Source: Porphyrobacter sp. AAP82 (GTDB lineage: Bacteria; Pseudomonadota; Alphaproteobacteria; Sphingomonadales; Sphingomonadaceae). Taken from it: a stretch of DNA of 64,000 bases. The stretch lies in contig NZ_ANFX01000012.1 in assembly GCF_000331285.1 (NCBI RefSeq), positions 62,001 through 126,000 on the forward strand, in the 5' to 3' direction. Shown here piece after piece: positions 2,374 through 20,490 of the stretch. Position 1 is the first letter of the stretch, and every line of letters begins with the position of its first letter. The notes under the pieces are model-generated. The model had not been told where the DNA came from. It did not search any database and saw nothing but the letters and a program-made list of their open reading frames with translations. The position numbers were made by a program, and so were the translations under genes.

Positions 2374-2424
2374 TAATCCATGAGGCTGGGGCGGACACCA
2401 TCTGACGCCAAGGACCTGCCCCCC

Positions 2425-3469: not shown

Positions 3470-3563
3470 GGCTCGGTCGCGTATGCAGGGCCCGTGACCG
3501 CGCAGGTTTCGCCGCACAGGCAGGCCACGCGGGGAGCGGACCAAGAGTTTTTCGGGGGGGACT

Positions 3564-5402
3564 TTGTTGCAATCTCACACCAGCCGGCCGCGCGCGCAGC
3601 TGCGTTCCTGTGCCAGCGTCACCGCCGTGGCGGCCGCCGCGCTTGCCGTCCTGCCCGCGCCGCTTCTGGCGCAGGCCGGACCGCCGCCGGCCGCAGGCGT
3701 CATCCCGCCCAACCGCAGCGATCTCGTGCCCCCCGACCAGCGCGAGCCCGCGCGCACCACGACGCTCACCGTCGACGGCGATTTCGAGCGCCCGCCCTGC
3801 GAGCTCGACCGGCCCGAATATGCCGGCATCAAGTTCACCGTGAAGGGCGCCGCCTTCGATGGCCTCGCCCGCGTGCCCGGCCTCTCGCTCGATAGCGCCT
3901 ATGCCGGTTATGTCGGGCGCGAGTTGCCGGTTTCGGTGCTGTGCGACATCCGCGCCGAGGCCAACGCGATCCTGCGCCGCGCCGGCTATCTCGCCACTGT
4001 CGAGATTCCCGAGCAGAGCCTGGCGGACGGCACCCCCGATTTCAAGGTCGTGTTCGGCCGCCTGACCACGGTGCGGGTGCGCGGCCAGGCGGGAGCTTCG
4101 GAGGCGCTGGTCGCGCGCTATCTCGAAAAGCTCACGGCCGACGAGGTGTTCAACATCAACCGCGCCGAGCGCTACCTGCTGCTTGCCGACGATCTGCCCG
4201 GGTTCGACGTGCGCCTGTCGCTGCGTCCGGCGGCGGGCGGGGCGCCCGGCGATCTGGTCGGCGAGGTCGCGGTGCTGCGCCAGCGCGCGATGGTCGATCT
4301 CAACCTCCAGAACCTCGCCAGCCGCGCGATCGGCCGCTACGGCGGGGTGCTGCGCGGCGAGGTCTATGATCTTACCGGGATGGGCGACCGCACCTCGATG
4401 GCGGTGTTCACCACGCTCGATTTCGTCGAGCAGCAGACGGTCCAGATCGGCCACGATTTCCGGGTCGGCAGCGAAGGGCTGCGGCTGGGCGGCCAGTTCA
4501 CCTGGAGCACCACCAACCCCGATACGGGGATCGCCGGGTTCAACGTCGAATCCGAGACGATCTTCGCATCCGCCTTTGCCAGCTATCCGCTGCTGCGCAC
4601 CCGCGCGCACAGCATCTATGCCGATGCCGGGTTCGACTATGTCGATCAGGACGTGGTGCTGAACGGCTTCAACCTGACGCGCGACCGGGTGCGGGTGGCC
4701 TATCTGCGCCTCTCGGGCGATATCACCGACCTTGGCTCGTTGCAGCGTTCGGCGGGCTATTCACCCTACGAGCCGCGCCTGCGCCTGCGTTACGGGGCAG
4801 AGCTGCGCCAGGGGCTCGACGTGTTTTCGGCGAGCGCGGATTGCCGCCCCAACCTCGTCGGATGCCTTGCCGGCGGCGCCGCCGCGCCAAGCCGGATCGA
4901 GGCCGATCCCACCCCGCTGCTGGTGCGTCTCAACACCGCAGTCGAATATCGTCCGGTGCCCAGGCTGACGCTGGTGCTCAATACCCAGGGGCAATACACC
5001 AAGGACCCGCTGCCCGCCTTCGAGGAACTGGCCGCCGGTTCCTTCTCGATCGGGCGTGGCTATGATCCGGGCGCGGTGCTCGGCGATAGCGGCATCCTCA
5101 ATTCCTTCGAGATGCGCGTCGGATCGATGAGCCCGCCGACCGCCGATGGCCTCGCCTGGCAGCCCTACATGTTCTCCGACATCGCCTTCGTCTGGAACGA
5201 GGACCCGAGCCGCAGCGCCGGCAACCCCGACCGGCTGTGGTCGGCCGGGGCCGGGGTGCGCGTGTCCTGGGGCCGCGGCATCCAGAGCGATCTGGCCATC
5301 GCCGTCCCGCTTTCTACCCCCGACCTCGCCCAGCGCCGGGGCGACGTCAGGTTCCTGTTCTCGCTCACCGCCCGCCTGTTTCCGTGGAGATTTTCGAGAT
5401 GA
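3564..5402 (+). CDS. TpsB-type outer-membrane transporter (ShlB/FhaC/HecB family)
   Basis: Two-partner secretion pore that exports the adjacent TpsA adhesin across the outer membrane. The 612-residue protein has a signal peptide ending near LLAQA (residue 37), a periplasmic POTRA region around residues 65-190 containing VRGQAGASEALVARYLEKL, and a C-terminal beta-barrel ending LFPWRFSR. Translation appears to start at TTG, with TTG codons at both 3564 and 3567; a run of seven G at 3554-3560 is the likely ribosome site and gives better spacing to the second TTG. The stop overlaps the tpsA start as ATGA, so the pair is translationally coupled. It is the first gene of a five-gene operon. Confidence 0.93.
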   Translation: MLQSHTSRPRAQLRSCASVTAVAAAALAVLPAPLLAQAGPPPAAGVIPPNRSDLVPPDQREPARTTTLTVDGDFERPPCELDRPEYAGIKFTVKGAAFDGLARVPGLSLDSAYAGYVGRELPVSVLCDIRAEANAILRRAGYLATVEIPEQSLADGTPDFKVVFGRLTTVRVRGQAGASEALVARYLEKLTADEVFNINRAERYLLLADDLPGFDVRLSLRPAAGGAPGDLVGEVAVLRQRAMVDLNLQNLASRAIGRYGGVLRGEVYDLTGMGDRTSMAVFTTLDFVEQQTVQIGHDFRVGSEGLRLGGQFTWSTTNPDTGIAGFNVESETIFASAFASYPLLRTRAHSIYADAGFDYVDQDVVLNGFNLTRDRVRVAYLRLSGDITDLGSLQRSAGYSPYEPRLRLRYGAELRQGLDVFSASADCRPNLVGCLAGGAAAPSRIEADPTPLLVRLNTAVEYRPVPRLTLVLNTQGQYTKDPLPAFEELAAGSFSIGRGYDPGAVLGDSGILNSFEMRVGSMSPPTADGLAWQPYMFSDIAFVWNEDPSRSAGNPDRLWSAGAGVRVSWGRGIQSDLAIAVPLSTPDLAQRRGDVRFLFSLTARLFPWRFSR

Positions 5403-8400
5403 GCAAAGCCACCAGCAAGCGAACCTCCCTGCTGACCGGCTGCGGCTGCGCAGCGCTGGCCCTGGGTCTGCTCCTCCCCGCCGCGCCGGCGGCCGCGCAG
5501 GCCATCCAGGCCAGCGGCAACGTCAATTTCGGGGCGGCCGAGATCGATCAGTCGGTGCCCAACCAGACCACCGTCGAGGTGTTCACCCAGACCGTGGTGG
5601 TCGATTGGCAGCCGTTTCAGGACGCTGCGGGTAACGCGCTGGTCTTCCTCCCCAACGGCACCACCGCCATCTACCAGAACTCTCCGACCGCCTCGTTCAC
5701 CGGCCAGTTCGCGGTGCTCAACCGCATCCTGCCCTCGACCGGGGGCAATGCCGCGGTCATCAACGGCAGCGTCGTCTCGCAGCTCTTCGATGCGGCCGGC
5801 GGTTCCTCGATCGGCGGGTTTGTCGCCTTCTATTCGCCGACCGGGATCGTCATCGGCAGCACCGCAACCTTCGATGTCGGCCAGCTGCTGCTGACAACCC
5901 TCGATGTGCCCAGCAACGAGGAATTCCAGAGCTTCGTCGAATCCGGCGCCGCGCTGACGCTGGTGGGGGCGATTGACACGCTCGCGCAGATCCGGATCGA
6001 TCCCGGCGCGCAGATCACCGCCACGCGCGACAACGCCTTTTTCGCTGCGGTTGCCGCCGACGTCCGGATGAGCGGGACCGCGCGGGTCAACGGCAGCTCG
6101 GCCTTCGTCGCGGGCGAGGTCGTCAATCTCACCTTCAGCAACGGGCTGTTCAACATCGAGGTGCCGACCGGCACTGCGGCGACCGGGCAGGTGCTGACCG
6201 TCGATGGCACGGTCGGCGGCCCGTCGAGCCTTGGCGTGGGCGACAACCACATGATCTACGGCGTGGCTCGCGCGTCGAAAGATCCGATCAGCATGCTGTT
6301 CAGCGGCAATCTCGGCTTCGATCCGGCGCAGACCGCGGGCGTGATCAACGGCGAGATCATCCTTGCGGCCAATTACGACGTGTCCGGGCGCGTGGTTGAT
6401 GGCAGCTCGATCTCGCAGGGCCTGGCCGCGACCTTCAGCGGCAATACCGGGTTCTTCGGACCGCGCGCGGACATCGTGGTCCAGGATTTCAATGCGTCGA
6501 GCAGCCTTCTGGCGATCAGCACGCACGCGGCCACGGTCTCGGCGGCCGGCACCAACAGCTCGGTTCAGGGCAACCTGCTGGTGGTGGGCCGCGAAACCGC
6601 GACCGTTTCCGCGAGCGCCGGCTTTGACATGCTCATATCGGGCGACGTGCTGGTCGATGCGCGCGATTTCGCCGCGAGCGGTTCCTTCGTGCAAGCGCTC
6701 GCCGTGGTCGATGCGACCGGCGGCAATGCGCTGATCGACGCCGGAGCGGGCAGCGTCATTACCGTCAACGGTTCGGCGCAGGTGCTCGCCGATGCCTTCG
6801 CGGGCGCCGATTTCGGGCAGAGCATCGCCGGCACCGCCACGGGCGGGACGGCCGCGATCAGCGCCAATGGCGGCGCGATCTCGGTGGGCGGCGTGGGATT
6901 CGTCTCCGCCCGCGGGTTCGGCACCGGCACACCCGACATCATCACCGGCGCCGAAGTGCGCGGCGGCAGCGCCGAGATCCGCGCCCGCGCGGGCGGCACC
7001 GTGGGCATCGGGCAACAGGCGAATGTGTTTGCCGGAGCGGGCGGATCGGCCGGCTCGCTCAGCACCGCGTCGACGCTCTCGAACGCCTATGGCGGCACCG
7101 CGCGGATCGCGGTGCTCGATGGCGGCGGGACGATCAATATCGGGGCCAGCACGCAGCTTGACGCGGCCGCCTTTGGCGGTGCGGCCAGGGCAGCGGGCAC
7201 CGGATCGGTCGGCGACGGCGGCGAGGCGACGGTCTCGATCCTCGATTCCGGCCTCATCACGCTGGGCAGCAGCCTGTTCCTCGATGCATCGGGCACCGGC
7301 GGGATCAATGCCGGGGGAACCGGCGGGACCGGGCTGGGCGGGCGGGCCTCGATCAACACGGTGAACGGCGGCACGGTCCAGCTGACCGGCTCGTTGTTTG
7401 CCGACGCCAGCGGGATCGGCGGCGACGGGGTGAACGGCGGCAACGGGCTGGGCGGCATCGCCGGCGCCGGTGCGCGGGTCGGCAGCATTTCGGTCACCAA
7501 TGACGCCTCCGTGACAGCAAACGGCTTTGGCGGCAGCGCGACATTCGACTTTGGCGGCACGGGCGGAACCGGGCGCGGGGGCAATGCCTACGTGCAGGCC
7601 GATGGCACGCTCACGGACACCGCGACGGTCACGGTGAACGGCGCGCTGACGGCACGGGCCAGCGGCACCGGCGGCACTGGCGGCGGATCGGACGGCGTCT
7701 CCATCGCCGCCGGGCGCGGCGGGGACGGCTATGGCGGCGATCTGGGCGTGCCCAACCAGGCCGACCCGAATTTCGGCAGCGGCGCCTTCGCGCTGGCAGG
7801 CGGGGACAATGGCACGCTCGCGATCGCGGGCGTCACGATCAACGTCGACGGCGTCGGTGGCAATGGCGGGAGCAGTGCCGGCACGTTTGTCGGCGGCACG
7901 GGCGGCAACGGGTTCGGCGGCCTTGCCCAGACCGGCCTTGCGCTGCTTGGGCTTGACGGTTCGGTCGGGCTGGGCCTGGCAAACCTGGGAGCTGTCAACG
8001 CCAGCGCGCAGGGCTACGGCGGGCGCAGCGGCCTCAACGGCGCCGACCTTGCCGACGGCACGGGGGGGAACGGCACCGGCGGTCTTGCCGTAGTGAGCCT
8101 GCGCGCAGGCGATGTGACCGCAGCAGGGATGACACTCAACGCCAACGGCACCGGCGGTGCGGGCGCCGCGGCCGGGACTGGCAGCGGGGGCGAGACCGCC
8201 GTGCTCGGCAGCCTCAGCGGGACACTGGTGGCAACCGGTCTGGCGATGACCGCCAACGGGATCGGCGGTCTCTCGGACGGGGGCACCGGCGGCGCGGGCT
8301 TTGGCGGCTCGTCGGGCATTCTCGCCAACGGGGTGAGCGTCACCATCAACGGCGACGTGCTGGCATCGGCCAGTGGCAGCGGCGGCCAATCGAACGACGG

Positions 8401-11400
8401 GCTGGGCGGGAACGGCTCCGGAGGATCGGCCTATATCGCGGTCAACACCTCAACCGTGGGCGGCACCATCAACATCTCCGGCCATGCCGCAGTCTTCGCC
8501 TTTGGCCAGGGCGGCAACACCCTGACCACCTTCAAGGCGGGCGACGGGCTGGGCGGGATCGCCTCGGTCGAGGCAACCGGCGGCACGGTGACGCTGGGCT
8601 CGGTGCAAGCCGCCTCGATCGGGCGCGGCGGGATAGCGGCCACGCACAATGGCGGCAACGGCACCGGCGGCACTGTGCGGCTGCGCGCGCGCGGCAGCAA
8701 CAGCACGCTGACCGTGCTGCGCAACGTCCCGGCGGCAGCGACGGGACGCTCGCCCGCTGGCTTCAACATGCTCAACGCCAACGGCATCGGCGAGAGCGCC
8801 AATGGCGGCGACGGCGTCGGCGGATTCGGCCAGGGCGGGACCTTGCTGGTCAACGCCGCCGAGGGCGGGACCATCAATCTGCCGGTCAACATCCTTGCCG
8901 ATCCCAACCGGGCGGCGGATTCGATGTTCATGGTTTCGCGCGGCTTCGGCGGCAGCAGTTCGGTCGATGGCGGCGCGGGCGGCTCGGCGGTTGGCGGCAC
9001 GGCTACCATGCTGGTCGACGGCGGGACGCTGGTGGCCGGCCCGACGACCATGTCGACCTTCACGCAGGGCGGCAGCTCGGGCAATCCGCTGCTCAATATC
9101 GCGGGCGGCAACGCCACCGGCGGGGCGCGCTCGATCCGGGTGATCAATGGCGGCATCCTGACCATCGAGACCAAGGGCGGCGGCGCGGGCGCGCAGGGCG
9201 GCAATGGTTCGGGCACCGGCAACGGCGGCAGCGCGCGCGGCGGCGCGGTGCTGTTCGAGGTGCTGGGTTCGACCGCGAACCTGCGGGGCGGTTTCGCCCT
9301 GTTCAACAACGCCACCGGCGGCAACGGCTTGCAGGGCGGCTTTGCCGATGCCGCCCTGATCACCTTCAATGCCAACAACGCGACGATCAATCTCTCCGAT
9401 GGCGTAAGCGGGCCGGGCAGGCTGAGCCTTGAATCCATCGTGGTCGGCGGGACCGGTCTCGGCTTTGGCGGCGATGCCGCCTCGGCGCTGGTCAACGTCA
9501 GCATCACCGGCACCTCGCTGACCGGCGGCGGGTTCTCGATCGACAGCTTCGCGCGCGGCGGCGCGGCAACCGATGCAGGCAGCTCCGGCGGCAATGCCAC
9601 GGCCGGTGCGGTCAGCTTGGGCGCGACCAACTCCACGCTCGGCCTGCGCGGCACGCTGCTGGTCAGCAGCAGCGCGATCGGCGGCGATGGCGGTCCGGAT
9701 ACGGGCAGCGGCGGGAGCGGCACCGGCGGCTCGGTGTCGGTGGCGCTCAACGGCACCGGGCTCACGCTCGTCACCGACAGTCTCGGCAGGCCCGGCAATA
9801 TCGAGGTCGTCACCACCGGCTCTGCCGGGCTCGGCCCCCAGGTCGGCAGCGCAAGGGGCGGCACGGCGAGCCTCACCGCCTCAGGCGGTTCGATCAGCGC
9901 AAGCGACGTGCTGATCGATGCGCAGGCCTTCGCGGTCGGACAGACCGGGCAGATCGGCGGCGCGGCGTTCGGCGGCGCGGCCCGGCTGGGCCTGGCCGGC
10001 ACCGCCACCCTTGCCGCGACCAACATCACGATCAACAGCAACGCCAATACCAGCCTGGGCGGAACGTCTTTCGGCGGGACGGCGGAATTCGCGATGGCGA
10101 CCGGCAGCACCGGCTCGCTCACCGCCGATCTGATGTCCGTGCTGGCCGACGGGACCGGCGGCGATCCGACTGACCTTGCCAATACCGCCGGCGTTTTCAA
10201 TATAGAGGTTGCAGGCGGCAACGCCAACCTGCTGACCCTTGACGCCTCGGCGAGCGGCGACCAGCTCGACGCTGACCCGGTCGCTTCGCGCATCTCGGCG
10301 GTTGTAGGCAATCTCAATGTGGCCAATCAGCTCACCGCCTTTACCTTTGGCGATCTCAACGTCGAGCACGGCGAGAACGGGATCATCGGTTCCAATGTCG
10401 TCACCGGGACAACCGCGATCCAGATGGGCGCGCGCGGCACGCTGCGGGTGTTGGGCATTGTCGGCGGCGGCGGCGGCGGCGGCGGGAGCGCGGCCGGTTC
10501 CACCGGCGCGCTGAGCGGCGGTTCGGTCGATCTGCTCGCGGGGCGCTCGATCATTGTCGACGGGAACATCGCCACCAGTAACGGCCCGATCAACCTGAGC
10601 GCGAACCATGGCGGCGGTCAGCCCCTCGCGCAGCCCAATCCCGCGGTCATCGACATGCGGCAGGGCGCGAACATCAATGCCGGCACCGGCAACGTCAGCA
10701 TCGCTCTGATCGACGGCGGTAGCGATCCGCAGCGCCAGACCGGCGAAGTCACGCTGGCAAACATCACGGCGAGCACCATTACCGTGCGCAATGCCGGATC
10801 GAGCGCGGGCAGCAACATCCGCGTGCTGGCCGATGGCGTGCTGAGTGCATCGGGCAGCGCGCGCGCGATCGACCTTGCCTCGTTGAATGGCGAGGTCATC
10901 AACCTCCATGGCGATGCCGGCCTCGATCTGACCGGCACGGGCTATTATTCGATCTTCGCTGCGACCCCCACCGGATCGCAGATCGGCACAGTCACCAATT
11001 ATGCACGCTTCTACAACGTGCAGACCGAGGCCGCCTACCTCGCGGCCAGCCCCGGCAGCAACTACGCCGCCTTCCGCATCACGCCGGTGCTGACCGTCAC
11101 CGCCGATGATGTGGCGCGCTTCTACGGCAGCGCCAACCCGACCTTCAGCTCGACCATTTCCGGCTTCCTGCCGGGCGACGGGTTGAGCGACCTCAGCGGG
11201 CTGTTGCAATATCTCACCGCCGCCGACGGCACCTCGCCGATCGGACAATATGCGCTCAATGTGTCGCAGGGCACGCTGACGAGCGCGCAGGGCTACACCT
11301 TCAGCTTCGTGCCCGGCACGCTGACCGTCACCCCGCGTCCGATCACGGTCACCGCCGATAACCTGTCGCGCTTCTACGGCAACCCCAACCCGGCGCTGAC

Positions 11401-12991
11401 CTTTACGGTCGGCGGGCCGGGGCTGGTGAACGGCGACCAGCTGGGCGGCAGCCTCGCCACCACTGCGGTGAGCACCAGCGGCATCGGCAATTACGCGATC
11501 ACGCAAGGCACGCTGATCGCGAGCAGCAACTACGACCTCACCTTCGTCGGCGGCCAACTGACGATCACGCCGCGCCCGATCACCATCGACGCGAGCAATC
11601 TGTCGCGGGCCTATGGCGATGCCAACCCGGCGCTGACCTATGTCGTGGGCGGGCAGGGCCTCGTCAACGGCGACCAGCTGACCGGCGCCCTCACCACGGT
11701 AGCGGGCGTTACCACCGGGATCGGCAGTTATGCGATCACGCAAGGCACGCTGACGGCGGGCGGCAACTACTCCATCACCTACACCGGCGGCCAGCTGGCC
11801 ATTACCCCGCGCGCGATCACGGTGACTGCGGACAACCTCTCGCGCCTCTACGGCAATGCCAATCCGGCGCTGACTTACGTCGTGGGCGGGCTGGGTCTGG
11901 TGAACGGCGACCAGCTGACCGGTCTCCTGGCGACGCTGGCGGACCAGACGAGCGGCATCGGCAGCTACGCGATCACCCAAGGCACGCTGGCGGCGAGCGC
12001 CAATTACACGCTCAGCTTCGTCGATGGCCAGCTGGCGGTTACCCCGCGCCCGATCACGGTGACGGCGGACATCCTCTCGCGCATCTATGGCAACGCCAAT
12101 CCTGCGCTGACCTTCACGGTCGGCGGGCAGGGCCTCGTCAACGGCGACCAGCTGGGCGGCAGCCTTGCCACCACCGCCGGGCTCACCAGCGGGATCGGCA
12201 ATTATGCGATCACGCAAGGTTCGCTGGTCGCGAGCAGCAATTACGACCTGACCTTCGTGGGCGGCCAGCTGACGGTGACGCCGCGCCCGATCACCATCAC
12301 CGCGAGCGATCTGTCGCGGGTCTATGGCGATGCCAACCCGGCGCTGACCTTCACGGTCGGCGGCCAGGGCCTCGTCAACGGCGACCAGCTCAGCGGCGCG
12401 CTGGCGACCACCGCCGGGGTGACCACGGGTGTCGGCGGGGTCGCGATCACGCAAGGCACGCTCGCGGCCAGCGCCAATTATGCGGTGACCTACAACGCTG
12501 GCGTGCTCACCATCACCCCGCGCCCGCTGACCGTGGCGGCCAACAACCAGTCGAAGACGCTGGGCTTTGCCGATCCGGTGCTGACGTTCCTCGTCACCGG
12601 CGGCGATCTGGTCAACGGCGACCAGTTGACCGGCCTGCTCGCGCGCGATCCCGGCGAGACGATCGGCAACTTAGTGATCCGCCAGGGGACGCTCACGGCG
12701 GGCGCGAATTACGCGCTCACCTACGTGCCCGGCACCTTCACCATCGACCCGCCGCCGGTCTCGCCCGATATCAACAATCCGACCACGATCGAGCCGGCGC
12801 TGGTCGGCGCCGAGACCCCCCCGCCGGTCGAGAGCGAGGAGGAGGAGCGCTTCGGCATCGACTTCCCCGAACGGCCCGATGCGCGGCTGATCGGCGAGGA
12901 TCCGCTGCTCGATGATCCGGTGGCAAGCGGCGGCGACAGCTCGCTCTATGGTAACGGCGCGGGCGCCGCCTCCACCACGGGAGGCCAGTGA
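5399..12991 (+). CDS. TpsA filamentous-haemagglutinin-like secreted adhesin with MBG repeats
   Basis: A giant 2530-residue exoprotein, partner of the upstream TpsB. A signal peptide (ending AAAQA, about residue 37) leads into the TPS/haemagglutination-activity domain needed for recognition by TpsB, roughly residues 38-330. Residues of about 420-1800 are very rich in Gly, Asn, Thr and Ala, with recurring GGTGG/GGNG-type turns expected to fold as a long right-handed beta-helix. From about residue 1898 there are seven MBG-type repeats with YGNANPALT and LVNGDQL signatures. The C-terminus is an acidic tail with a SGGDSSLYG motif. ATG overlaps the tpsB stop (ATGA), which fixes this start rather than upstream in-frame codons. 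It likely mediates adhesion or biofilm formation; the ligand is unknown. Confidence 0.93.
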   Translation: MSKATSKRTSLLTGCGCAALALGLLLPAAPAAAQAIQASGNVNFGAAEIDQSVPNQTTVEVFTQTVVVDWQPFQDAAGNALVFLPNGTTAIYQNSPTASFTGQFAVLNRILPSTGGNAAVINGSVVSQLFDAAGGSSIGGFVAFYSPTGIVIGSTATFDVGQLLLTTLDVPSNEEFQSFVESGAALTLVGAIDTLAQIRIDPGAQITATRDNAFFAAVAADVRMSGTARVNGSSAFVAGEVVNLTFSNGLFNIEVPTGTAATGQVLTVDGTVGGPSSLGVGDNHMIYGVARASKDPISMLFSGNLGFDPAQTAGVINGEIILAANYDVSGRVVDGSSISQGLAATFSGNTGFFGPRADIVVQDFNASSSLLAISTHAATVSAAGTNSSVQGNLLVVGRETATVSASAGFDMLISGDVLVDARDFAASGSFVQALAVVDATGGNALIDAGAGSVITVNGSAQVLADAFAGADFGQSIAGTATGGTAAISANGGAISVGGVGFVSARGFGTGTPDIITGAEVRGGSAEIRARAGGTVGIGQQANVFAGAGGSAGSLSTASTLSNAYGGTARIAVLDGGGTINIGASTQLDAAAFGGAARAAGTGSVGDGGEATVSILDSGLITLGSSLFLDASGTGGINAGGTGGTGLGGRASINTVNGGTVQLTGSLFADASGIGGDGVNGGNGLGGIAGAGARVGSISVTNDASVTANGFGGSATFDFGGTGGTGRGGNAYVQADGTLTDTATVTVNGALTARASGTGGTGGGSDGVSIAAGRGGDGYGGDLGVPNQADPNFGSGAFALAGGDNGTLAIAGVTINVDGVGGNGGSSAGTFVGGTGGNGFGGLAQTGLALLGLDGSVGLGLANLGAVNASAQGYGGRSGLNGADLADGTGGNGTGGLAVVSLRAGDVTAAGMTLNANGTGGAGAAAGTGSGGETAVLGSLSGTLVATGLAMTANGIGGLSDGGTGGAGFGGSSGILANGVSVTINGDVLASASGSGGQSNDGLGGNGSGGSAYIAVNTSTVGGTINISGHAAVFAFGQGGNTLTTFKAGDGLGGIASVEATGGTVTLGSVQAASIGRGGIAATHNGGNGTGGTVRLRARGSNSTLTVLRNVPAAATGRSPAGFNMLNANGIGESANGGDGVGGFGQGGTLLVNAAEGGTINLPVNILADPNRAADSMFMVSRGFGGSSSVDGGAGGSAVGGTATMLVDGGTLVAGPTTMSTFTQGGSSGNPLLNIAGGNATGGARSIRVINGGILTIETKGGGAGAQGGNGSGTGNGGSARGGAVLFEVLGSTANLRGGFALFNNATGGNGLQGGFADAALITFNANNATINLSDGVSGPGRLSLESIVVGGTGLGFGGDAASALVNVSITGTSLTGGGFSIDSFARGGAATDAGSSGGNATAGAVSLGATNSTLGLRGTLLVSSSAIGGDGGPDTGSGGSGTGGSVSVALNGTGLTLVTDSLGRPGNIEVVTTGSAGLGPQVGSARGGTASLTASGGSISASDVLIDAQAFAVGQTGQIGGAAFGGAARLGLAGTATLAATNITINSNANTSLGGTSFGGTAEFAMATGSTGSLTADLMSVLADGTGGDPTDLANTAGVFNIEVAGGNANLLTLDASASGDQLDADPVASRISAVVGNLNVANQLTAFTFGDLNVEHGENGIIGSNVVTGTTAIQMGARGTLRVLGIVGGGGGGGGSAAGSTGALSGGSVDLLAGRSIIVDGNIATSNGPINLSANHGGGQPLAQPNPAVIDMRQGANINAGTGNVSIALIDGGSDPQRQTGEVTLANITASTITVRNAGSSAGSNIRVLADGVLSASGSARAIDLASLNGEVINLHGDAGLDLTGTGYYSIFAATPTGSQIGTVTNYARFYNVQTEAAYLAASPGSNYAAFRITPVLTVTADDVARFYGSANPTFSSTISGFLPGDGLSDLSGLLQYLTAADGTSPIGQYALNVSQGTLTSAQGYTFSFVPGTLTVTPRPITVTADNLSRFYGNPNPALTFTVGGPGLVNGDQLGGSLATTAVSTSGIGNYAITQGTLIASSNYDLTFVGGQLTITPRPITIDASNLSRAYGDANPALTYVVGGQGLVNGDQLTGALTTVAGVTTGIGSYAITQGTLTAGGNYSITYTGGQLAITPRAITVTADNLSRLYGNANPALTYVVGGLGLVNGDQLTGLLATLADQTSGIGSYAITQGTLAASANYTLSFVDGQLAVTPRPITVTADILSRIYGNANPALTFTVGGQGLVNGDQLGGSLATTAGLTSGIGNYAITQGSLVASSNYDLTFVGGQLTVTPRPITITASDLSRVYGDANPALTFTVGGQGLVNGDQLSGALATTAGVTTGVGGVAITQGTLAASANYAVTYNAGVLTITPRPLTVAANNQSKTLGFADPVLTFLVTGGDLVNGDQLTGLLARDPGETIGNLVIRQGTLTAGANYALTYVPGTFTIDPPPVSPDINNPTTIEPALVGAETPPPVESEEEERFGIDFPERPDARLIGEDPLLDDPVASGGDSSLYGNGAGAASTTGGQ
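11090..12750 (+). repeat. Seven in-frame MBG-domain repeats, five with exact 237-bp period
   Basis: Within the adhesin, units begin at 11090, 11342, 11579, 11816, 12053, 12290 and 12527. From 11342 on, successive starts are exactly 237 bp (79 codons) apart; the first unit is 252 bp. Units start with I/L-T-V/I-x-A, contain YG(N/D)ANPALT, GLVNGDQL and YAITQGTL, and end with TPRP. The middle units are most alike, and the first and last are diverged, a pattern typical of expansion by recombination. Confidence 0.95.
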
Positions 12992-12992
12992 C

Positions 12993-15900
12993 ATGATCGT
13001 GCGTCGTCATCGCCTGCTGCGCTCCGCGCTCTCGCTCGCAGCCCTCGGCACGCTGGGTGCAAGCCTTGCCGCAGGGCCGGGCGCGGCCCGCACCGAAGCA
13101 CGCGCCAGCCTCGCGCTGCGCGACACCTTCCCGATCGGCTCGAACGGGCTGTGCGAGGCGCAGATCCTCCCGCCCGAACCGGGCGCCGGACTGTTCGACC
13201 GGCGCTATTCGGTGATCTGCCGCGATGCCGCCGCGCCGGTCGGCACGCTGTGGGTGGTCAAGCCCAAGAGCGGCGAGACCGCCGGGCCGGCGCGCTTTGC
13301 GGGCGCCGATGCCGATTGCCGCGGCGATGCCGCGCGGGCGCCCGGTGCGCTCCCCGGCCTTGCCGCGGTCGAGCGGCTCGGGTGCAAGCGCGCGGGCAGC
13401 ATCCTGGCGACCGACCTCTTGATCGGCAGCCGCGCGGGCCGCACCTATGCCGCAACGGGCCTTGCTGCCTATGCCAAGGCCCTCGAGCTCGGCATCGCCT
13501 CGCTCGCCAGCGACGCGGTGGTGCCCGGCACGGTCGAGATTCCGCTCACCAGCACCACCGATGCCGCCGCCTTCGCGCGCCAGCAGGCCGAAGCGATCGC
13601 CGCCGATCAGGCGCTGGTCGAAGCCTACCGCCGCAGCAATGCCGGCGACTATGCCGAAGCCGCAGAATTCTTCGCGGTCTCGGCCGCCGCGCTCTCGGGC
13701 CCCGGCGCTGCCGAGGCGCAGCTCAACTCCGCGCTCCAGCAATCGAACCTCGGCAGCTTCACCGAAGCCCGCCGGCTGTTCGCCGCCGCCCGTTCCGGCA
13801 GTTCGGGCAGCCCCGTGCTGGCCCGCATGCAGCGCAATTATGAAGGGATGGACGCCCTCAACCAGCGCCAGCCCGCGCGCGCGCTGGCGGTGCTCGATGC
13901 GCCGCTTTCGAGCGAGTTCGGCGATGCCGAGGACGTCCGCGCGCTCACCATCGGTGCGGCGCTCGCCGGCCAGCTGGCGAGCGAGAGCGGGCGGATCATC
14001 GCCGAATATTCCTCCAACCTGACCCCGCTCGAACGCGCGCGGCTGCTCGATGGCCAGAACGCCTATCTCAAGGCCGCCGCGCTGCGCCAGCTGGGCCGCG
14101 GCAGCGAGGCCCCGGCGCTGCTCGCTGCTGCCGAACGCGCCTTTGCCGACGTGCGCGGAGGCCGCGTGGTCTCGGTCGCGTGGCTGCGCGCGCAAGTGCT
14201 GGGCGAGCTCGCCGAGAACGCCGAACGCGCCGGCCAGAGCGCCGAGGCCGAGCGGTTCCACAAGCAGGCGATCGGCTTGCTCGAAGGGGTCTACCCGGAT
14301 TCGCCCGCGCTCGGCAGCGCCCGCGCGCAGCTCGCCGGGCTCTTTGCCCGCACCGGCCGGCGCGATGATGCGCTGGCGATCTATCGCGGCATCATCGGCG
14401 ATGCGGACGGGCGCCCGCTGCCTTCGTTGCGTTCGGTGATGACGCCCTATTTTGCGCTGCTGACCGATACCACGGCGGGCGGCGGCACGGCGGGTGCGGC
14501 GGCCGATGTGTTCGCCGCCAGCCAGCTGTTCCAGCGCCCGGGCCTCGCACAGACCCAGGCCGCGCTCGCCCGCGAGCTTTCGGGCGGATCGGACGAGGCA
14601 TCGCAATTGTTCCGCACCGCCACCAATCTCGGCCGCGGGATCGAACAGCAGCGCGTCTCGCTGCTCGAGCTTGAAAGCCAGCCCGAAGCCAGTACCCGCC
14701 TCGCCAGCCAGATCGCCGAGCGGCGCACACGGCTCGGCCAGCTTGAACAGCAGCAGGCCGAAGTGCTTGTGCGGCTTGCCGAATACCCGCGTTACCGCGC
14801 GGTTGCCGGCGACGCGATCGGCCTTGCCGAACTCCAGGCGGTGCTCGGCGAGGGAGAGGCCTATGTGAAGCTGGTGACGCTCGATCGCGATACCTATGTC
14901 GTCTACGCCACGCGCGATGCCGCGAGGGTGTGGCGCGCCGATGCGACGCCGCGCCAGCTGGAAACGCTCGTCACCCAGATCCGCGAGAGCATCGCGGTGA
15001 TCGAGGGCGGGCAGGTCAATACCTATCCCTTCGACCTCGTCCACGCGCGCGAGCTTTACGTGCGTCTGTTCGGCCCGGTCGCAGGCGAGTTGCCCGGCTT
15101 GAGGCATCTGGTGTTCGAACCCGATGGCGCGCTGCTCAAGCTGCCGGTCAACCTGCTCGTCACCGACGATGCGAGCGTTGCCGCCTATCAGGCGCGGATG
15201 AAGGCCAAGGGCGCGGACGAATATGATTTCCGCGGCACGAAGTGGCTCGGGCGCAGCACGCAGGTGAGCACCTCGGTCGGCCCCTTGGCGTTCCGCGATG
15301 TGCGCGCCGCGCGCCCGTCGGACGGAAAGCGCGCCTATCTCGGGCTCGGGGAGAACACTCCGATCGGCACCGCCAGCCCGGGCGCATCGCGGGTGCGCGC
15401 CGCGCTCGAGGCGGGCGAGCGCTGCACCTGGTCGCCCAATATCTGGGCAAACCCGATCAGGGCCGACGAATTGCGCGGCGCGGCGGCCAAGTTCGGCGGC
15501 ACCGCGCAGGTCCTGACCGGTACGGACTTCACCGACACCGGCATCGCGCGCCTGCCGGACCTTTCGGAATTCCGCATCCTCCACTTCGCCACCCACGGCC
15601 TCGTCACCGCGCCCCAGCCCGGCTGCCCGCCGCGTCCGGCGCTGCTGACCAGCTTCGACAAGGATACGAACTCCGACGGGCTCTTGAGCTTTGCCGAGAT
15701 CTTCGACCTCAGGATCGATGCCGACCTCGTGATCCTTTCGGCCTGCGACACCGCCGGCAGCGCCACCGTCGGCGCCGCGCGCGAGGCGGGGGTGCGGAGC
15801 GGCGGCGAATTCGCGCTCGATGGCCTGGTGCGCGCCTTCGTCGGCGCGGGCGGGCGCACGGTGCTCGCCAGCCACTGGCCGGTGCCTGACGATTTCGACG

Positions 15901-16100
15901 CGACCGGACGCCTCGTCGGCGGCCTGTTCGCCGAGGACGGGCGCAGCACCGCCGAGGCGCTGCGCACCTCGCAGGTCGCACTGATGGACGATGCGGAAAC
16001 CTCGCATCCCTTCTACTGGTCGGCCTTCGCGGTGGTCGGCGACGGCGCGGCTGTCGCGCTGAACGCTGGCCGGGGGGCAGGAAATGGACCAGACCGTTGA
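12993..16100 (+). CDS. Exported TPR-CHAT domain protein (caspase-like peptidase candidate)
   Basis: The 1035-residue protein has an N-terminal signal (LAAGPGAARTEA), a central helical region of TPR-like units (about 190-560), a coiled-coil stretch near 560-600 and a C-terminal CHAT domain (about 700-1030). The CHAT domain has the expected caspase-type dyad: HFATHG near residue 866 supplies His and ILSACDTAG near residue 917 supplies Cys. CHAT proteins cleave or regulate partner proteins. GGAGG lies 8 nt before the ATG, which follows the tpsA stop by one base. Its 3' end overlaps the cyclase gene by 17 nt. Location between adhesin and cyclase suggests it processes the adhesin or senses its export; this is inference. 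With a signal peptide, the peptidase would act in the periplasm. Confidence 0.88.
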   Translation: MIVRRHRLLRSALSLAALGTLGASLAAGPGAARTEARASLALRDTFPIGSNGLCEAQILPPEPGAGLFDRRYSVICRDAAAPVGTLWVVKPKSGETAGPARFAGADADCRGDAARAPGALPGLAAVERLGCKRAGSILATDLLIGSRAGRTYAATGLAAYAKALELGIASLASDAVVPGTVEIPLTSTTDAAAFARQQAEAIAADQALVEAYRRSNAGDYAEAAEFFAVSAAALSGPGAAEAQLNSALQQSNLGSFTEARRLFAAARSGSSGSPVLARMQRNYEGMDALNQRQPARALAVLDAPLSSEFGDAEDVRALTIGAALAGQLASESGRIIAEYSSNLTPLERARLLDGQNAYLKAAALRQLGRGSEAPALLAAAERAFADVRGGRVVSVAWLRAQVLGELAENAERAGQSAEAERFHKQAIGLLEGVYPDSPALGSARAQLAGLFARTGRRDDALAIYRGIIGDADGRPLPSLRSVMTPYFALLTDTTAGGGTAGAAADVFAASQLFQRPGLAQTQAALARELSGGSDEASQLFRTATNLGRGIEQQRVSLLELESQPEASTRLASQIAERRTRLGQLEQQQAEVLVRLAEYPRYRAVAGDAIGLAELQAVLGEGEAYVKLVTLDRDTYVVYATRDAARVWRADATPRQLETLVTQIRESIAVIEGGQVNTYPFDLVHARELYVRLFGPVAGELPGLRHLVFEPDGALLKLPVNLLVTDDASVAAYQARMKAKGADEYDFRGTKWLGRSTQVSTSVGPLAFRDVRAARPSDGKRAYLGLGENTPIGTASPGASRVRAALEAGERCTWSPNIWANPIRADELRGAAAKFGGTAQVLTGTDFTDTGIARLPDLSEFRILHFATHGLVTAPQPGCPPRPALLTSFDKDTNSDGLLSFAEIFDLRIDADLVILSACDTAGSATVGAAREAGVRSGGEFALDGLVRAFVGAGGRTVLASHWPVPDDFDATGRLVGGLFAEDGRSTAEALRTSQVALMDDAETSHPFYWSAFAVVGDGAAVALNAGRGAGNGPDR

Positions 16101-18147
16101 GGCCCGCTCCGGCAAGACGCTGTTCGGCCAGCTCGCGCGCACCTGGCGCAATGTCCGCACGGCGGGAGGGGTGCAGCTCGGCCTGACCCTGATGCTGATG
16201 TGCCTTGCGGTGTTCATCGCGCGCTACGGCTGGATCCTGCCCGGTGCCGCGGTGCCCACCCCGCTGATCAGCGAGGCCGAGCGCGCGCTTTATGACCTCA
16301 GGGCCTATTATGCCGCCGATCTGGTCGAGGAAGACAAGCGGGTGGTGCTGGTGGTCTATACCGACCAGACCCTGATCGCCGCGCGCAAGCGCTCGCCGCT
16401 CGATCGCGGCCTGCTGGCCAAGACCCTGCAAACGCTCGACACCTTCGCGCCCAAGGCGATCGGGATCGACATCCTGTTCGACCAGCCGCAGGATGAGGAC
16501 GAGGAGCTTGTCGCGGCGCTGCGCGGGATGAAGACCCCGGTCGCGGTCGCCTATGCCGCCAAGGCCACCAACCCCGACGATATCGAATACGAGCAGCAGC
16601 AGTTCCTCGAGGCGTTCATGGCGCGGCTCGAGGGCAGCAATGCCCGGCCCGCGAGCATCCGGCTCGACAACACCTTCGGCGCGACCCGGGTGTGGCCCGA
16701 CATCCGCGAGGGCCTGCCGCCGCTGCTCGGCCGGGTGATGCTGGTCGAGGCGGGCGAGCCGGCGCACGGCTTCGAAGGCTACGAGGGGGCAATCGATTAC
16801 CGGCGCGCCAAGTTCGATGATTCGGTGCTCTACCCGCCCGCCCAGATCGACCTTTTCGTCGATCCCGATCCGGAAATCCTGCCGTTCCTCAAGGAACAGT
16901 TCGCGGGCAAGTATATCCTGATCGGCGGCGATATCGTCGATTACGACCGCGTCGAGACGACCTTCACCTCGATCAACGGCGAAGTGCCGGCGGGGATCGC
17001 GGTCCATGCCGAAATCATCGCCCAGATGCTCGATAACCGCGTGTTGCAGCCGATTCCGGAATGGGTGCTGTGGGCGATGGCGATCCTGGTCGTGCTCATC
17101 GCGGTCCTGACCGCGCTCCTGGAATGGCCCGCGCGCTGGCTTGCGCTGTTCGGCATCGCGCAGCTGTTCATCTTCCAGGGCCTTCCGGTGTTCCTGCAAG
17201 TCCGCGATGTCGATACCTACGGCCTGCCGGCGGTCGGCTGGCTGATCGGGTGGATCCTGGTGTTCACCGCCGTCACCGTGACTGCGCGCGCATCGGGGGC
17301 CAAGCAGCGCAACTTCGCGACCGGCGCGCTCGGCAAATACATCCCGCGCGACATTGCCCAGGCGATCATCGACAAGCCCGAGCTGCTCAGCCTCGGGGGC
17401 GAGAAGCGCGCGATCTTCGTGCTGTTCAGCGACCTTGAAGGCTTCACCAAGATGAGCCACGCGATCCCGCCCGAAATGGTCGCCAAGCTGTTGAACCGCT
17501 ATCTCGACATGCTCAGCCAGGTGGTGCTCGATCATGGCGGGGTGATCGACAAGTTCGTGGGCGATGCGGTGGTCGCCTTCTGGGGCGCGCCGATCAGCCG
17601 GCCCGACGACGGGATGCGCGCTGCACGGGCGGGCTATGCGATGTGGCAGGCGGGCGAGGCGTTCCGTGCCGAGGTCGCCGCGATGGACTCCGATCTGCCC
17701 AAGATCGGCAAGACCCGTGTCGGCCTCCACTATGGCGATGCGGTGATCGGCAATTTCGGCGGGGCAACCCGCATCCAGTACACCGCACTGGGCGATTCGA
17801 TGAACACCGCCGCGCGCCTTGAATCCGCCAACAAGGCGCTCGACTCATCGGTCATGGCGAGCCGCGAATTCGCCGAGGCGTCGGGCCTCGACTGGTGGCG
17901 GCAGATGGGCCGGGTGGTGCTGCGCGGCCGGGCGCGGCCGGTCGATCTGTTTGAACCGGCGCCCGATTTTCCGGCAGACGACCGCGCCGAACTGGCCGCG
18001 GCGAGCGCGCTCGCCCTCACCGATCCCGGCGCGGCGCTGCGCATGGCGCAAGCGGTGGCGGCTCGCCACCCGGATGATTCAGCGCTACGCAATCTTGCAA
18101 GGCGCATGGCAGAGATGGACGAGGGAGGAACCTATGTTCTCGGTTAG
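16084..18147 (+). CDS. CHASE2-domain class III adenylate cyclase
   Basis: A 687-residue membrane signalling enzyme making a cyclic nucleotide in the cytoplasm. It has one N-terminal membrane segment (about 32-50), an extracytoplasmic CHASE2 sensor (about 70-310), three further membrane segments (about 325-398) and a catalytic domain from about 435. Metal-binding Asp residues lie in FSDLEGF (about 449) and FVGDAVVAFWG (about 491). The Lys in DKFVGD and the Thr in YTALGD are the adenine-selecting pair of class IIIb cyclases, so cAMP is the likely product. It overlaps the CHAT gene by 17 nt and the next gene by 14 nt, indicating one operon. CHASE2 may read the state of the exported adhesin or its CHAT partner. 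Confidence 0.93.
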   Translation: MDQTVEARSGKTLFGQLARTWRNVRTAGGVQLGLTLMLMCLAVFIARYGWILPGAAVPTPLISEAERALYDLRAYYAADLVEEDKRVVLVVYTDQTLIAARKRSPLDRGLLAKTLQTLDTFAPKAIGIDILFDQPQDEDEELVAALRGMKTPVAVAYAAKATNPDDIEYEQQQFLEAFMARLEGSNARPASIRLDNTFGATRVWPDIREGLPPLLGRVMLVEAGEPAHGFEGYEGAIDYRRAKFDDSVLYPPAQIDLFVDPDPEILPFLKEQFAGKYILIGGDIVDYDRVETTFTSINGEVPAGIAVHAEIIAQMLDNRVLQPIPEWVLWAMAILVVLIAVLTALLEWPARWLALFGIAQLFIFQGLPVFLQVRDVDTYGLPAVGWLIGWILVFTAVTVTARASGAKQRNFATGALGKYIPRDIAQAIIDKPELLSLGGEKRAIFVLFSDLEGFTKMSHAIPPEMVAKLLNRYLDMLSQVVLDHGGVIDKFVGDAVVAFWGAPISRPDDGMRAARAGYAMWQAGEAFRAEVAAMDSDLPKIGKTRVGLHYGDAVIGNFGGATRIQYTALGDSMNTAARLESANKALDSSVMASREFAEASGLDWWRQMGRVVLRGRARPVDLFEPAPDFPADDRAELAAASALALTDPGAALRMAQAVAARHPDDSALRNLARRMAEMDEGGTYVLG

Positions 18148-18880
18148 AATGAAGGCAAGGCTCGGCGCGCTGGCGCTGGCAGGTGCGGCGCTGGCGCTGC
18201 CGGCCGCGGCGATGGCGGGCGTGGTGGTGAAGTCCACCGGTCCTTCGGCGACGCGCTATCCGGTCGGCGCGAAGATCGACGACAATGCCACCATCACCTT
18301 GAAGCCGGGCGATGTGGTGACCGTGCTGACCGCGCAGGGCACCCGCGTCATCAAGGGCGCCGGCACCTTCCGCATCGGTGACCGTCCGCAGGTCGCCGCC
18401 GACCGCTTCGCCTCGCTCACCCGCAAGCGCGCCGCCACCCGCGTGCGCACCGGGGCGGTGCGCGGCGATCTCGAAGGCAACCCGACCAATCCCAGCCTGT
18501 GGTATGTCGACGTGACGCGTTCGGGCACGGTGTGTCTCTATGATCTTGCCTCGGTGCGCCTGTGGCGCCCGGGCGCGCCCGACACCATCACCTACCGGAT
18601 GTTCAACCGCGAGAACGGTGCCGCCGTCGATGTCACCTTCGACGAGACGGTGACCGTCGCCGCGCTTGATCCGATCCGCCTGCCGATCGTCGAGGGCGCG
18701 ACCTATTCGATCACCGGCCCGGACAATTCCACCAGCGCGCAGGTGAGCTTCGTGCTGCTCGAAGGCGATTTCGAAGCGCCCGACGCGCTCGCCGCGGCGC
18801 TGCTCGACAAGGGCTGCACCGTGCAGGTCGACATGCTGGCAGCGGGCCTCGATGACGAGGCTGCGGCGAGCGGCGGCTAA
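18134..18880 (+). CDS. Exported FecR-like protein, last gene of the adhesin operon
   Basis: The 248-residue product has a clear signal peptide ending AAAMA. The first half resembles a FecR-type beta-sandwich: a KPGDVVTVLTAQGTRVIKGAG-like segment with glycine turns, as in FecR domains attached to surface structures. The second half (about 110-230) is unassigned and contains two Cys (VCLYDL, KGCTV) that could pair. GGAGG precedes the ATG at 18134, which lies inside the end of the cyclase gene. Many TpsA/CHASE2 clusters carry a FecR-like partner; the role here could be periplasmic sensing. The family call is moderate. Confidence 0.65.
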   Translation: MFSVRMKARLGALALAGAALALPAAAMAGVVVKSTGPSATRYPVGAKIDDNATITLKPGDVVTVLTAQGTRVIKGAGTFRIGDRPQVAADRFASLTRKRAATRVRTGAVRGDLEGNPTNPSLWYVDVTRSGTVCLYDLASVRLWRPGAPDTITYRMFNRENGAAVDVTFDETVTVAALDPIRLPIVEGATYSITGPDNSTSAQVSFVLLEGDFEAPDALAAALLDKGCTVQVDMLAAGLDDEAAASGG

Positions 18881-19092
18881 ATAGGCGCGCGCTGCCGGCC
18901 TGTTGCCGATTGCCTGTTGCATCGCAGCCCCAAGCTTGGGAGAAGGGGTGACAGGGTCAGCCTGACGGGGGGAATCGGCACGCGGCACATGGCGGGACTT
19001 TTGCCGGATTGCACCATCGGGGCGCGGGGGCGTCTTGAAGGCGTGGCAAGGGGCCGCTAGGATCGGGTGACGAGCATCTCGGGGGGGATGGG

Positions 19093-20490
19093 ATGATACG
19101 AATTCTGGCGGATATGATCGCTGGCCGCGCGGCACCTTCGGGGCCGCGGCGCGTGTTGGCGCGCGTGGCCGCCGTGCTGGCACTGGCCGCGCTCTACCCG
19201 GTCTCCACAGCGCTCGGCGGCGGCACCTTCGAAGGCGTTGCGACCTGCGCCGGATCGACCTGCCACGGCCGCGCCGAAGGCAATGGCGCGGTTGTCAGGC
19301 AGGACGAGATCGCGACCTGGCAGGAACCGTCCTCGCCCTCGGGCGCGCATAGCCGCGCCTATGCCGTGCTCGGCGGGCGCAGGGGCCAGCAGATCGCGGC
19401 GAGCCTCGGGCTCGGCAATGCGCAATCCGCCCCCGCCTGCCTCGGCTGCCACGCGACAAACGCACCCGCCGGCCAGCGCGGCGCGAAGTTTACCCTGACC
19501 GACGGGGTCGGCTGCGAAAGCTGCCACGGCGCGAGCGGTGGCACCTGGCTTGCCGAGCACTATGCGCTGCCCGCCACCCATGCCTCGAACATCGCCGCTG
19601 GCCTGACCCCGCTCGACAATCCGCGCGCGCGGGCGGGCGTGTGCCTCGATTGCCACTACGGATCGAGCAAGCCCGGCCAGTTCGTCACCCACGCGATGAT
19701 GGCCGCGGGTCACCCGCGCGTGTCTTTCGAGCTCGACCTGTTCAGCGCGCTTCAGCAGCACCACCAAATCGACGGCGATTACATCGCCAGGAAGGGCGCG
19801 CCCAGTTCGGTACGGTTCTGGGCGGTCGGCCAGGCCGAGGCGGTGCGGCGCGCGGGCCAACTCTTCGCCCAGCCCAAGCTCGGCTACGAGGGCGCCTTCC
19901 CGCAGTTCTATTTCCTCGATTGCCATTCCTGCCACCGCACCATCGCCGATGGCCCGAACCGCAAGCTCACCTTCGAGACCAATCCGGGCCGCCCGATCCC
20001 CTTCGGCAACCCGCCCTTCAACGACGAGAACATGATCATGCTGTCGGCGGTCGCAGGCGCGCTGGTGCCGGGCGAGGCGGGCGCATTCCAGACCGCCGCG
20101 CGCGACTTCCACAAGGCGTTCGGCGCCGGCCCTGCCGAAGCGCGCGCGGCCGCGCAGGCGCTCTCGGCGCGGGCGGGGGCGCTGGCTGAAAGCCTGTCGG
20201 GCCGCGCCTATGCCGATGCCGACGCCTTCAAGATCATCGCGATCATCGCCGGCGAGGCGACCGCCCCGCGCTTTACCGACTATGCCGGGTCGGTGCAGGC
20301 GGTGATGGCGGTCGACACGCTGCTCAACGCGCTGGTGCGCGAGGGCCGGGTCACGCAGGGCGCGGCGGCGGGCATCCGCGGCGATATCTCCCGCGCCTAC
20401 AAGGCCGTCGAGGAGCCCAATGCCTATCGCCCGGCCGATTTCCGCACGGCGCTCAAATCGGCCTCGACCGCGATTGCACGGCTGAAATAG
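19093..20490 (+). CDS. Periplasmic pentaheme cytochrome c (c554-like)
   Basis: The 465-residue protein has an N-terminal hydrophobic export segment and five heme c attachment sites: an unusual CX4CH (CAGSTCH, about residue 52), then CLGCH (about 116), CESCH (about 141), CLDCH (about 184) and CHSCH (about 277). The arrangement resembles the cytochrome c554 family, which passes electrons between redox partners in the periplasm. The last 150 residues have no heme site and are helical. A G7 tract just before the ATG probably serves the ribosome. It opens a plus-strand operon with two to three bases between genes and the next members, which suggests it works with the beta-barrel and the ten-heme cytochrome. 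Confidence 0.88.
   Translation: MIRILADMIAGRAAPSGPRRVLARVAAVLALAALYPVSTALGGGTFEGVATCAGSTCHGRAEGNGAVVRQDEIATWQEPSSPSGAHSRAYAVLGGRRGQQIAASLGLGNAQSAPACLGCHATNAPAGQRGAKFTLTDGVGCESCHGASGGTWLAEHYALPATHASNIAAGLTPLDNPRARAGVCLDCHYGSSKPGQFVTHAMMAAGHPRVSFELDLFSALQQHHQIDGDYIARKGAPSSVRFWAVGQAEAVRRAGQLFAQPKLGYEGAFPQFYFLDCHSCHRTIADGPNRKLTFETNPGRPIPFGNPPFNDENMIMLSAVAGALVPGEAGAFQTAARDFHKAFGAGPAEARAAAQALSARAGALAESLSGRAYADADAFKIIAIIAGEATAPRFTDYAGSVQAVMAVDTLLNALVREGRVTQGAAAGIRGDISRAYKAVEEPNAYRPADFRTALKSASTAIARLK

Follow-up and report, generated by a model that had tools for sequence, protein, structure and literature searches.

Two-partner secretion, a TPR-CHAT protein, a CHASE2 cyclase and multiheme cytochromes in one conserved gene system of Porphyrobacter sp. 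AAP82 and its relatives

The fact that a giant exported protein, its outer-membrane transporter, a caspase-like protein and a receptor-type cyclase are encoded almost without a gap in Porphyrobacter sp. AAP82 has led us to ask what such genes could do together. They lie in a stretch of 64,000 nucleotides (contig NZ_ANFX01000012.1, positions 62,001 to 126,000), hereafter the window, taken from a genome of 2.9 Mb in 52 contigs; the named relatives closest to it belong to Porphyrobacter and Erythrobacter. The operon encodes the TpsB and TpsA proteins of a two-partner secretion (TPS) pair, a TPR-CHAT protein, a CHASE2 cyclase and a secreted protein that we call the fifth protein, followed by four genes of heme and barrel type (Table 1). 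It is a conserved, undescribed gene system assembled from known parts. The reading that we tentatively favour, while giving it somewhat less than an even chance, is that of an envelope system built around the TPS pair, in which the CHAT protein would recognise and most likely cut the tail of TpsA, and the CHASE2 cyclase with its partner would convert the outcome into cyclic AMP (cAMP).

Genes kept together across the family

The original prediction held that five genes are joined by overlaps or single bases, and this is borne out: the TpsB and TpsA genes overlap by 4 nucleotides (ATGA), one base separates TpsA from the CHAT gene, the CHAT and cyclase genes share 17 nucleotides, and the cyclase gene overlaps the fifth gene by 14, or stands 1 base from it if the ATG at 18149 is the start (-4, +1, -17 and -14 nucleotides in order). 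Its further claim, that these genes form a single functional unit, is strengthened by their co-occurrence when unlinked, by re-linking and by a signature at the C terminus of TpsA, and has to be widened, since the unit runs on beyond 18880. Downstream on the same strand stand four more genes, conserved with the first five, at spacings of 212, 2, 3 and -1 nucleotides, and a search of 3200-3700 and 18800-19150 turned up neither a sigma-70-type promoter nor a terminator. It is a bigger system, with more of a redox character, than the original prediction described.

Across 149 genomes of the family, at cut-offs of E ≤ 1e-150 for a full-length CHAT and E ≤ 1e-160 for a close cyclase, CHAT was found in 47 genomes, the cyclase in 48 and both in 47. 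The only cyclase genome without a CHAT match (G018; genome and locus handles are ours) is 85% complete and holds the cyclase pair, the cytochrome, HbpS and barrel genes (together, the triple) and a signature-bearing TpsA (G018:C114:16563-16637 and G018:C62); its CHAT is predicted to lie in the missing part. The fifth gene occurs in 52 genomes, including all 48 with the cyclase, and the genes of the triple each occur in the same 53, including 45 of those 48. In 22 of the 48 cyclase genomes no CHAT adjoins the cyclase (L073-L094, two of them near a contig end), so the link between the two is not mere hitchhiking; the fifth gene follows the unlinked cyclase in 22 of 22 cases and the triple comes directly after in 14. 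Seven genera (g1, g35, g37, g38, g47, g78, g79) contain genomes with the whole set together with genomes that have none of it, and trees of the CHAT (99 rows) and cyclase (77 rows) sequences show at least 3 and 7 to 10 changes, respectively, in linkage to CHAT. Outside its own small group, the closest relatives of the window CHAT lack a neighbouring cyclase, and the window cyclase is likewise nearest mostly to unlinked cyclases; two loci have therefore apparently merged into one operon in this lineage. As far as the barrel gene, the order seen in the window is repeated in L170, L172 and L180 and, over the part covered, in L171 and L200, while other loci are unlinked or reordered. A decaheme gene is next in all five; of the loci whose sequence runs on for at least 400 nucleotides, 22 of 22 have it after the barrel gene.

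Distant homologues are arranged differently: CHAT comes first, then the fifth gene and CHASE2, and TpsB may be present or absent (G012, G031, G050, G106; L098-L101). The same order is found in records of Niveispirillum, Phenylobacterium and Burkholderiaceae (L152, L236, L230, L232); this version is present in other Alpha- and Betaproteobacteria. Among 362 genomes of the class outside the family, the fifth gene was found in 31, CHAT (E ≤ 1e-60) in 54 and both in 22, where about 4.6 would be expected, in a count that scored two CHAT candidates per genome, so that further CHATs may hide. Within 20 kb of nine family CHAT loci of another type (L104-L112) there was no TpsB, cyclase or fifth gene.

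The TpsA tail and the TPR-CHAT protein

TpsB matches ShlB (1.1e-12) and POTRA_2 (1.4e-5), both above the Pfam cut-off. The TPS domain PF05860 gave no Pfam match at E ≤ 0.1 in the window TpsA; in a set of eight TpsAs it lies above the cut-off in two (L230, 1e-33; L154, 7.5e-16), just under it in a third (L121, 1.2e-7), and has no match in the other five. TpsA bodies range from about 1,400 to more than 7,000 amino acids while their tails stay alike, carrying a short signature that typically reads PLIDEPVTGAGNDDLW and in the window LLDDPVASGGDSSLYG. The tails are of two types, PL[IL]D[ED]PVTG[AS]GN[DE]DLW and, in the group of the window, [DE]PV[TAS]SGG[ND]xxL[YW]. The strict pattern is present in the last 80 residues of 55 of 91 linked long open reading frames (ORFs), a total that keeps at least three non-TpsA frames (L050 and L211, read in an incorrect frame; L232, a different protein), versus 0 of 1820 internal segments of the same proteins. 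The remaining tails mostly show visible variants, and some proteins of the divergent version end in SGSGNPSQW or SVGNSSNW. A looser nine-residue pattern was set aside as uninformative alone, being present in 71 of the 91 tails but also in 285 of the 1820 control segments; a pattern for distant tails, chosen after inspecting these very tails, recovers 19 of 21 versus 472 of 4200 controls.

Does this signature belong with CHAT? A 27-column profile of it, run over the 149 genomes, matched 44 at E ≤ 1e-5, namely 43 with a full-length CHAT plus G018, all of them with the cyclase, and matched none of the 37 genomes that have TpsB but no full-length CHAT. Four of the 47 full-length-CHAT genomes stay above that threshold (G031, 0.0018; G114, 0.445; G127, 0.008; G143, 0.25). 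Inspection by eye of control TpsAs without CHAT, a small control of 12 plasmid loci with few readable tails, found no signature; the profile run over whole genomes is the principal control. In G038 and G103, which have CHAT and no match for the cyclase, the fifth gene or the triple, the tails end in the related VDLFTGSSNESLW and FNPLVGRGNEGLI, so that the signature goes with CHAT and not with the cyclase. A second profile, made from 28 tails of one group and run against 9394 other ORFs, gave 4 matches at E ≤ 0.01 (one of them, L153, from the training group) and 6 at E ≤ 1, all of them TpsA tails, and none among reversed decoys; so few matches across groups suggest that the two main types of tail, though related, have diverged.

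Some loci depart from this pattern in ways worth recording. The TpsA tails of L114 (12899-13039) and L115 (9630-9734) repeat the signature in an altered form, QQVTGTRNENLDEPVTGTRNENLD, with the Trp lost. In L257 (Qingshengfaniella alkalisoli NZ_CP042263.1, 11698-19881) TpsB, an MBG-domain TpsA without the signature and a caspase family protein stand in series, the last a further case of a clan CD-type protein attached to a TPS pair. The TpsB of L017/L114 (genome G139) is split into two ORFs, by decay or sequence error, and the genome holding the window has a second, distant TpsB of 29% identity (G000:C35:5463-6839, minus strand).

The CHAT domain of the window protein is recognised by Pfam (PF12770, 4.3e-45), and its His/Cys dyad is invariant in 61 of 61 CHAT sequences (His868, codon 15594-15596; Cys918, codon 15744-15746). 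It has seven cysteines, each conserved without exception in 36 of 36 sequences; one is catalytic, and the presence of the other six suits an oxidising compartment, while the N terminus, read by eye, resembles a signal peptide. We would accordingly look for this protein in the periplasm. Its structural model (predicted local distance difference test, pLDDT, 84.8; predicted template modelling score, pTM, 0.83) matches Csx29 of Craspase (Z 25.3, 7.2 Å over 582 residues) and separase (Z 22.3, 3.2 Å over 310 residues), and the top Foldseek match to the TPR-CHAT part is the transmembrane anti-sigma factor DdvA (PDB 8rot, E 3.9e-10). By sequence, the TPR part is closest in the PDB to the TPRs of kinesin light chain (E 8.9e-10), several structures of which were solved, by their titles, with tryptophan-acidic peptides. 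The common TpsA tail (N-D/E-D-L-W) is itself a tryptophan-acidic peptide, and this likeness offers a lead on how the TPR part might bind the tail. In L200 (4245-7351), a metagenome-assembled genome of Erythrobacter SCN 62-14, CHAT is split in two frames, by decay or sequence error.

It is tempting to hypothesize that TpsB exports TpsA with its N terminus first, in which case the signature-bearing tail would be the last part to leave the periplasm. There the TPR-CHAT protein would recognise and bind the signature, hold it and most likely cleave it through His868 and Cys918, so as to set retention against release; that CHAT processes the tail is, in our opinion, probable. One may equally argue that the TPRs merely hold the tail and relay its export state to the CHASE2 pair, CHAT being a binding sensor or scaffold and cleavage absent or incidental. 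This explanation, unlikely in our judgement and still the best placed of the competitors, draws on the kinesin light chain likeness, with ligands that resemble the common tail, and on the strong fold match to DdvA, a signalling protein; a pure scaffold would have no need of a His and a Cys kept in every sequence of both alignments (61/61 and 36/36).

Cyclic AMP, redox genes and competing explanations

The cyclase carries CHASE2 (PF05226, 7.6e-23) and Guanylate_cyc (PF00211, 3.4e-13) domains and aligns with CyaB of P. aeruginosa, with the metal Asp and the IDKFVGD segments kept. At aligned sites its residues match those of adenylate cyclases, which would suit the use of ATP rather than GTP and the making of cAMP. 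Whereas the predicted identities of TpsB, CHAT and the CHASE2 cyclase have Pfam support, the "FecR-like" label given to the fifth protein had to be abandoned: FecR (PF04773) matches 0 of 16 members of its family at E ≤ 0.1. The model of the fifth protein (pLDDT 83) has no Foldseek match at E ≤ 0.001 and only weak VIA matches (best Z 7.2), with no FecR entry among the matches listed, which excludes nothing; one of these, the "cell surface anchoring domain" of 5ix9 (Z 6.9, model residues 25-85), is a lead that we have not used. The fifth gene is duplicated in tandem in L021, L046/L130, L178, L197, L198 and L090. In L250 (Azospirillum oryzae NZ_CP054616.1, 8917-13533) a hypothetical protein, a CHASE2-type cyclase and TpsB stand in series without CHAT. 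A Crp/Fnr gene just upstream of CHAT in Sphingobium herbicidovorans (L153) was considered as a conserved cAMP receptor and rejected: among the ORFs of all loci compared, Crp/Fnr matches occur only in L153 itself and in L243.

The redox side of the system begins with the genes that trail the fifth gene. The probable barrel protein, with no Pfam or PDB match and no match to MtrB models or solved barrels, is encoded between the HbpS-like lipoprotein gene and the decaheme gene, and a second redox cluster converges on the operon from the opposite strand. All or part of that cluster stands beside TPS or cyclase genes in the window, L129, L146/L101, L123 and L215. Five cyclic-nucleotide (cNMP)-binding matches were found in the genome, and two of them fall in the 845-amino-acid oxidoreductase of this cluster, 4 kb beyond the operon, which may be the target of cAMP.

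If CHAT does process the TpsA tail, the remaining steps might run as follows. The fifth protein and the CHASE2 domain would sense the state of TpsA, or the redox state of the cytochrome, heme-protein and barrel module, and the cyclase would turn the sensed state into cAMP; the likely receiver would be the FAD/4Fe-4S oxidoreductase with its two cNMP-binding domains, which together with cytochrome b and the multiheme proteins would pass electrons to the outer membrane. Co-occurrence when unlinked, re-linking in different orders and a signature that tracks CHAT make a circuit from export or processing state to cAMP plausible. Several points weigh against it. No cleavage site was identified in TpsA, and the reader of the signature could instead be TpsB or the fifth protein, or its role could be confined to binding. 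The Fisher values for co-occurrence (1e-22 to 1e-38) ignore shared ancestry, and outside the family 32 of the 54 genomes with CHAT at E ≤ 1e-60 have no fifth-gene match. The triple is missing from three genomes (G011, G084, G145) that retain CHAT, cyclase and TPS, and eight others, among them G012, G022, G050 and G106, have the triple without a close cyclase, so that the triple and the TPS part are separable.

The triple and the decaheme gene trail the cyclase pair even where the TPS genes are elsewhere, and the converging cluster offers a cNMP-binding flavoprotein, a cytochrome b and a decaheme cytochrome; both facts would fit a system that is mainly an outer-membrane conduit for electrons or heme, with TpsA as surface scaffold and cAMP as an independent input, for example through redox sensing by CHASE2. 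We find this decidedly improbable, as it leaves the TpsA signature unexplained and sits poorly with the three genomes that dispense with the triple. The most ambitious form of our own proposal, a new envelope sensor in which CHAT in the periplasm holds and cuts the tag of an exported giant, the CHASE2 cyclase converts its export or contact state into cAMP, cAMP gates an outward electron chain (cNMP-binding flavoprotein, cytochrome b, decaheme proteins and outer-membrane conduit) and the giant serves as the surface part of that chain, is a long shot to which we attach a shade less belief again. That TpsA could be a contact-dependent weapon or a sensor of phage or kin, and CHAT the suicide or defence protease that it triggers, deserves very little credence: CHAT proteases do work in Craspase, and DdvA, a fold match of CHAT, controls a defence island, but what stands at the end of TpsA is disordered linker plus the short signature, the operon shows neither a toxin-like domain nor a gene of immunity type, and the location of CHAT looks periplasmic. 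Finally, mere neighbours with separate functions, inherited together in genomes that when small are often densely packed, and correlated by tests uncorrected for ancestry, are hardly credible given co-occurrence in 47 of 48 genomes despite 22 unlinked cases, at least three and at least seven linkage changes on the two trees, seven genera within which the whole set comes or goes, and an independent order in distant lineages.

Known systems and gene coordinates

The nearest precedent for the secretion part is FhaB/FhaC of Bordetella, where a giant TpsA passes through a POTRA barrel, its C-terminal prodomain stays periplasmic, and the periplasmic proteases DegP and CtpA govern release by a processing that begins from the C-terminal end (PMC8263021). 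The giant TpsA and its POTRA-barrel partner are common to both, and processing of the tail would be a further likeness. Unlike FhaB/FhaC as portrayed there, which relies on general HtrA and tail-specific proteases, the present operon has a dedicated CHAT gene, a tail reduced to a short linear signature, and an attached cyclase and cytochromes (PMC8263021). For the receptor part, work on Sinorhizobium meliloti describes CHASE2 cyclases CyaD1, CyaD2 and CyaK that are activated via the outer-membrane barrel NsrA and make cAMP, with Clr; near cyaD1 lie the FecR-domain gene smc02177 and the gene smc02178, and one target is the large TPR protein SMb20495, while mutants of smc02177, smc02178 and SMb20495 still perceive the plant signal (PMC13001267, PMC5498481). 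Those accounts, as far as available, describe neither a TPS pair nor CHAT, and the fifth gene here has no FecR match (PMC13001267, PMC5498481).

Csx29 and separase share with our protein the order TPR then CHAT, the His/Cys dyad and the modelled fold; both are intracellular, whereas our protein begins like a signal peptide, has a further beta domain at its N terminus and keeps six invariant cysteines besides the catalytic one. No Cas protein that could be the Cas7-11/gRAMP partner of Craspase was matched in a search of the nine operon proteins. DdvA uses an extracytoplasmic CHAT-like part in signalling, within a single membrane protein whose target is a sigma factor, whereas here CHAT and receptor are separate and the output would be cAMP. 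Porin-cytochrome conduits of the MtrCAB type combine a barrel with multiheme cytochromes, and here too the gene of a probable barrel protein adjoins those of periplasmic or exported multiheme cytochromes; in contrast to MtrCAB, there is no sequence match to MtrB models, and the heme numbers, HbpS and LVIVD parts differ. Sortase, exosortase and rhombosortase are sorting systems with C-terminal signals, and the present signature resembles these in being short, C-terminal and paired genome by genome with one peptidase-fold protein; it differs in lacking a transmembrane helix or basic tail after it and in serving one substrate per locus, not many. In the open-licence PMC literature we found no publication joining the CHAT domain with CHASE2, filamentous hemagglutinin, two-partner secretion or hemagglutinin, no relevant one joining CHASE2 with hemagglutinin or dealing with DdvA, and no description of the TpsA C-terminal signature.

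Should the proposal prove true, two-partner secretion would gain a caspase-like partner of its own and a C-terminal tag that can be recognised. For the CHASE2 receptor cyclases, most of whose signals are unknown, it would offer a natural ligand hypothesis, and the export of a surface protein would be linked to cAMP and envelope redox chemistry in many environmental bacteria. The signature is a specific, testable handle on this circuit.

Table 1. Operon genes, TpsA signature and converging redox cluster in the window
Feature	Position	Strand	Basis
TpsB outer-membrane transporter, ShlB/FhaC type, POTRA_2	3564..5402	+	Pfam; TTG start uncertain
TpsA giant exported protein, 2530 aa, signal-peptide-like N terminus, seven MBG_2 stretches	5399..12991	+	Pfam
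TpsA C-terminal signature, 27 aa, core LLDDPVASGGDSSLYG, 13 aa short of C terminus	12872..12952	+	Tail alignment, profile, pattern counts
TPR-CHAT protein, 1035 aa, signal-peptide-like start, His868/Cys918 dyad	12993..16100	+	Pfam, alignment, model
CHASE2 receptor-type class III cyclase, aligns with known adenylate cyclases	16084..18147	+	Pfam, alignment
Fifth gene: secreted two-domain protein paired with cyclase	18134..18880	+	No Pfam FecR match
Multiheme c-type cytochrome, c554-like; 4 CXXCH + 1 CX4CH (pentaheme)	19093..20490	+	Pfam, motif count
Lipoprotein-like protein with HbpS-like heme-binding domains	20493..22448	+	Pfam
Probable outer-membrane barrel protein, conserved	22452..24305	+	Barrel inferred; no Pfam/PDB match
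Decaheme protein, 1378 aa, 10 CXXCH, LVIVD repeats	24305..28441	+	Domains, motif count
Calcineurin-like phosphoesterase, converging redox cluster	28588..29457	-	ATG start taken at 29457
Decaheme cytochrome, 10 CXXCH, weak FHA-like N-terminal match	29477..31282	-	Domains, motif count
Cytochrome b561-like membrane protein	31293..32171	-	Below Pfam cut-off; ATG start taken at 32171
FAD/NAD oxidoreductase, 845 aa, two cNMP-binding + 4Fe-4S domains	32171..34708	-	Domain matches

Two minus-strand frames (24299-26563 and 26567-27667) were ruled out as genes, being shadows of 24305-28441. Just upstream of TpsB lies a small Ala/Gly-rich lipoprotein-like gene (2380-3279, plus strand) with no homologue in the loci compared, and before it, on the opposite strand, a Peptidase S46 gene (29-2347, minus strand), which we take to be of dipeptidyl-peptidase 7/11 type. 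Beside the redox cluster, a TPR protein like the cytochrome c biogenesis proteins CcmH/CycH is encoded at 34744-35772 (plus strand), as it also is in L146/L101 and L215.

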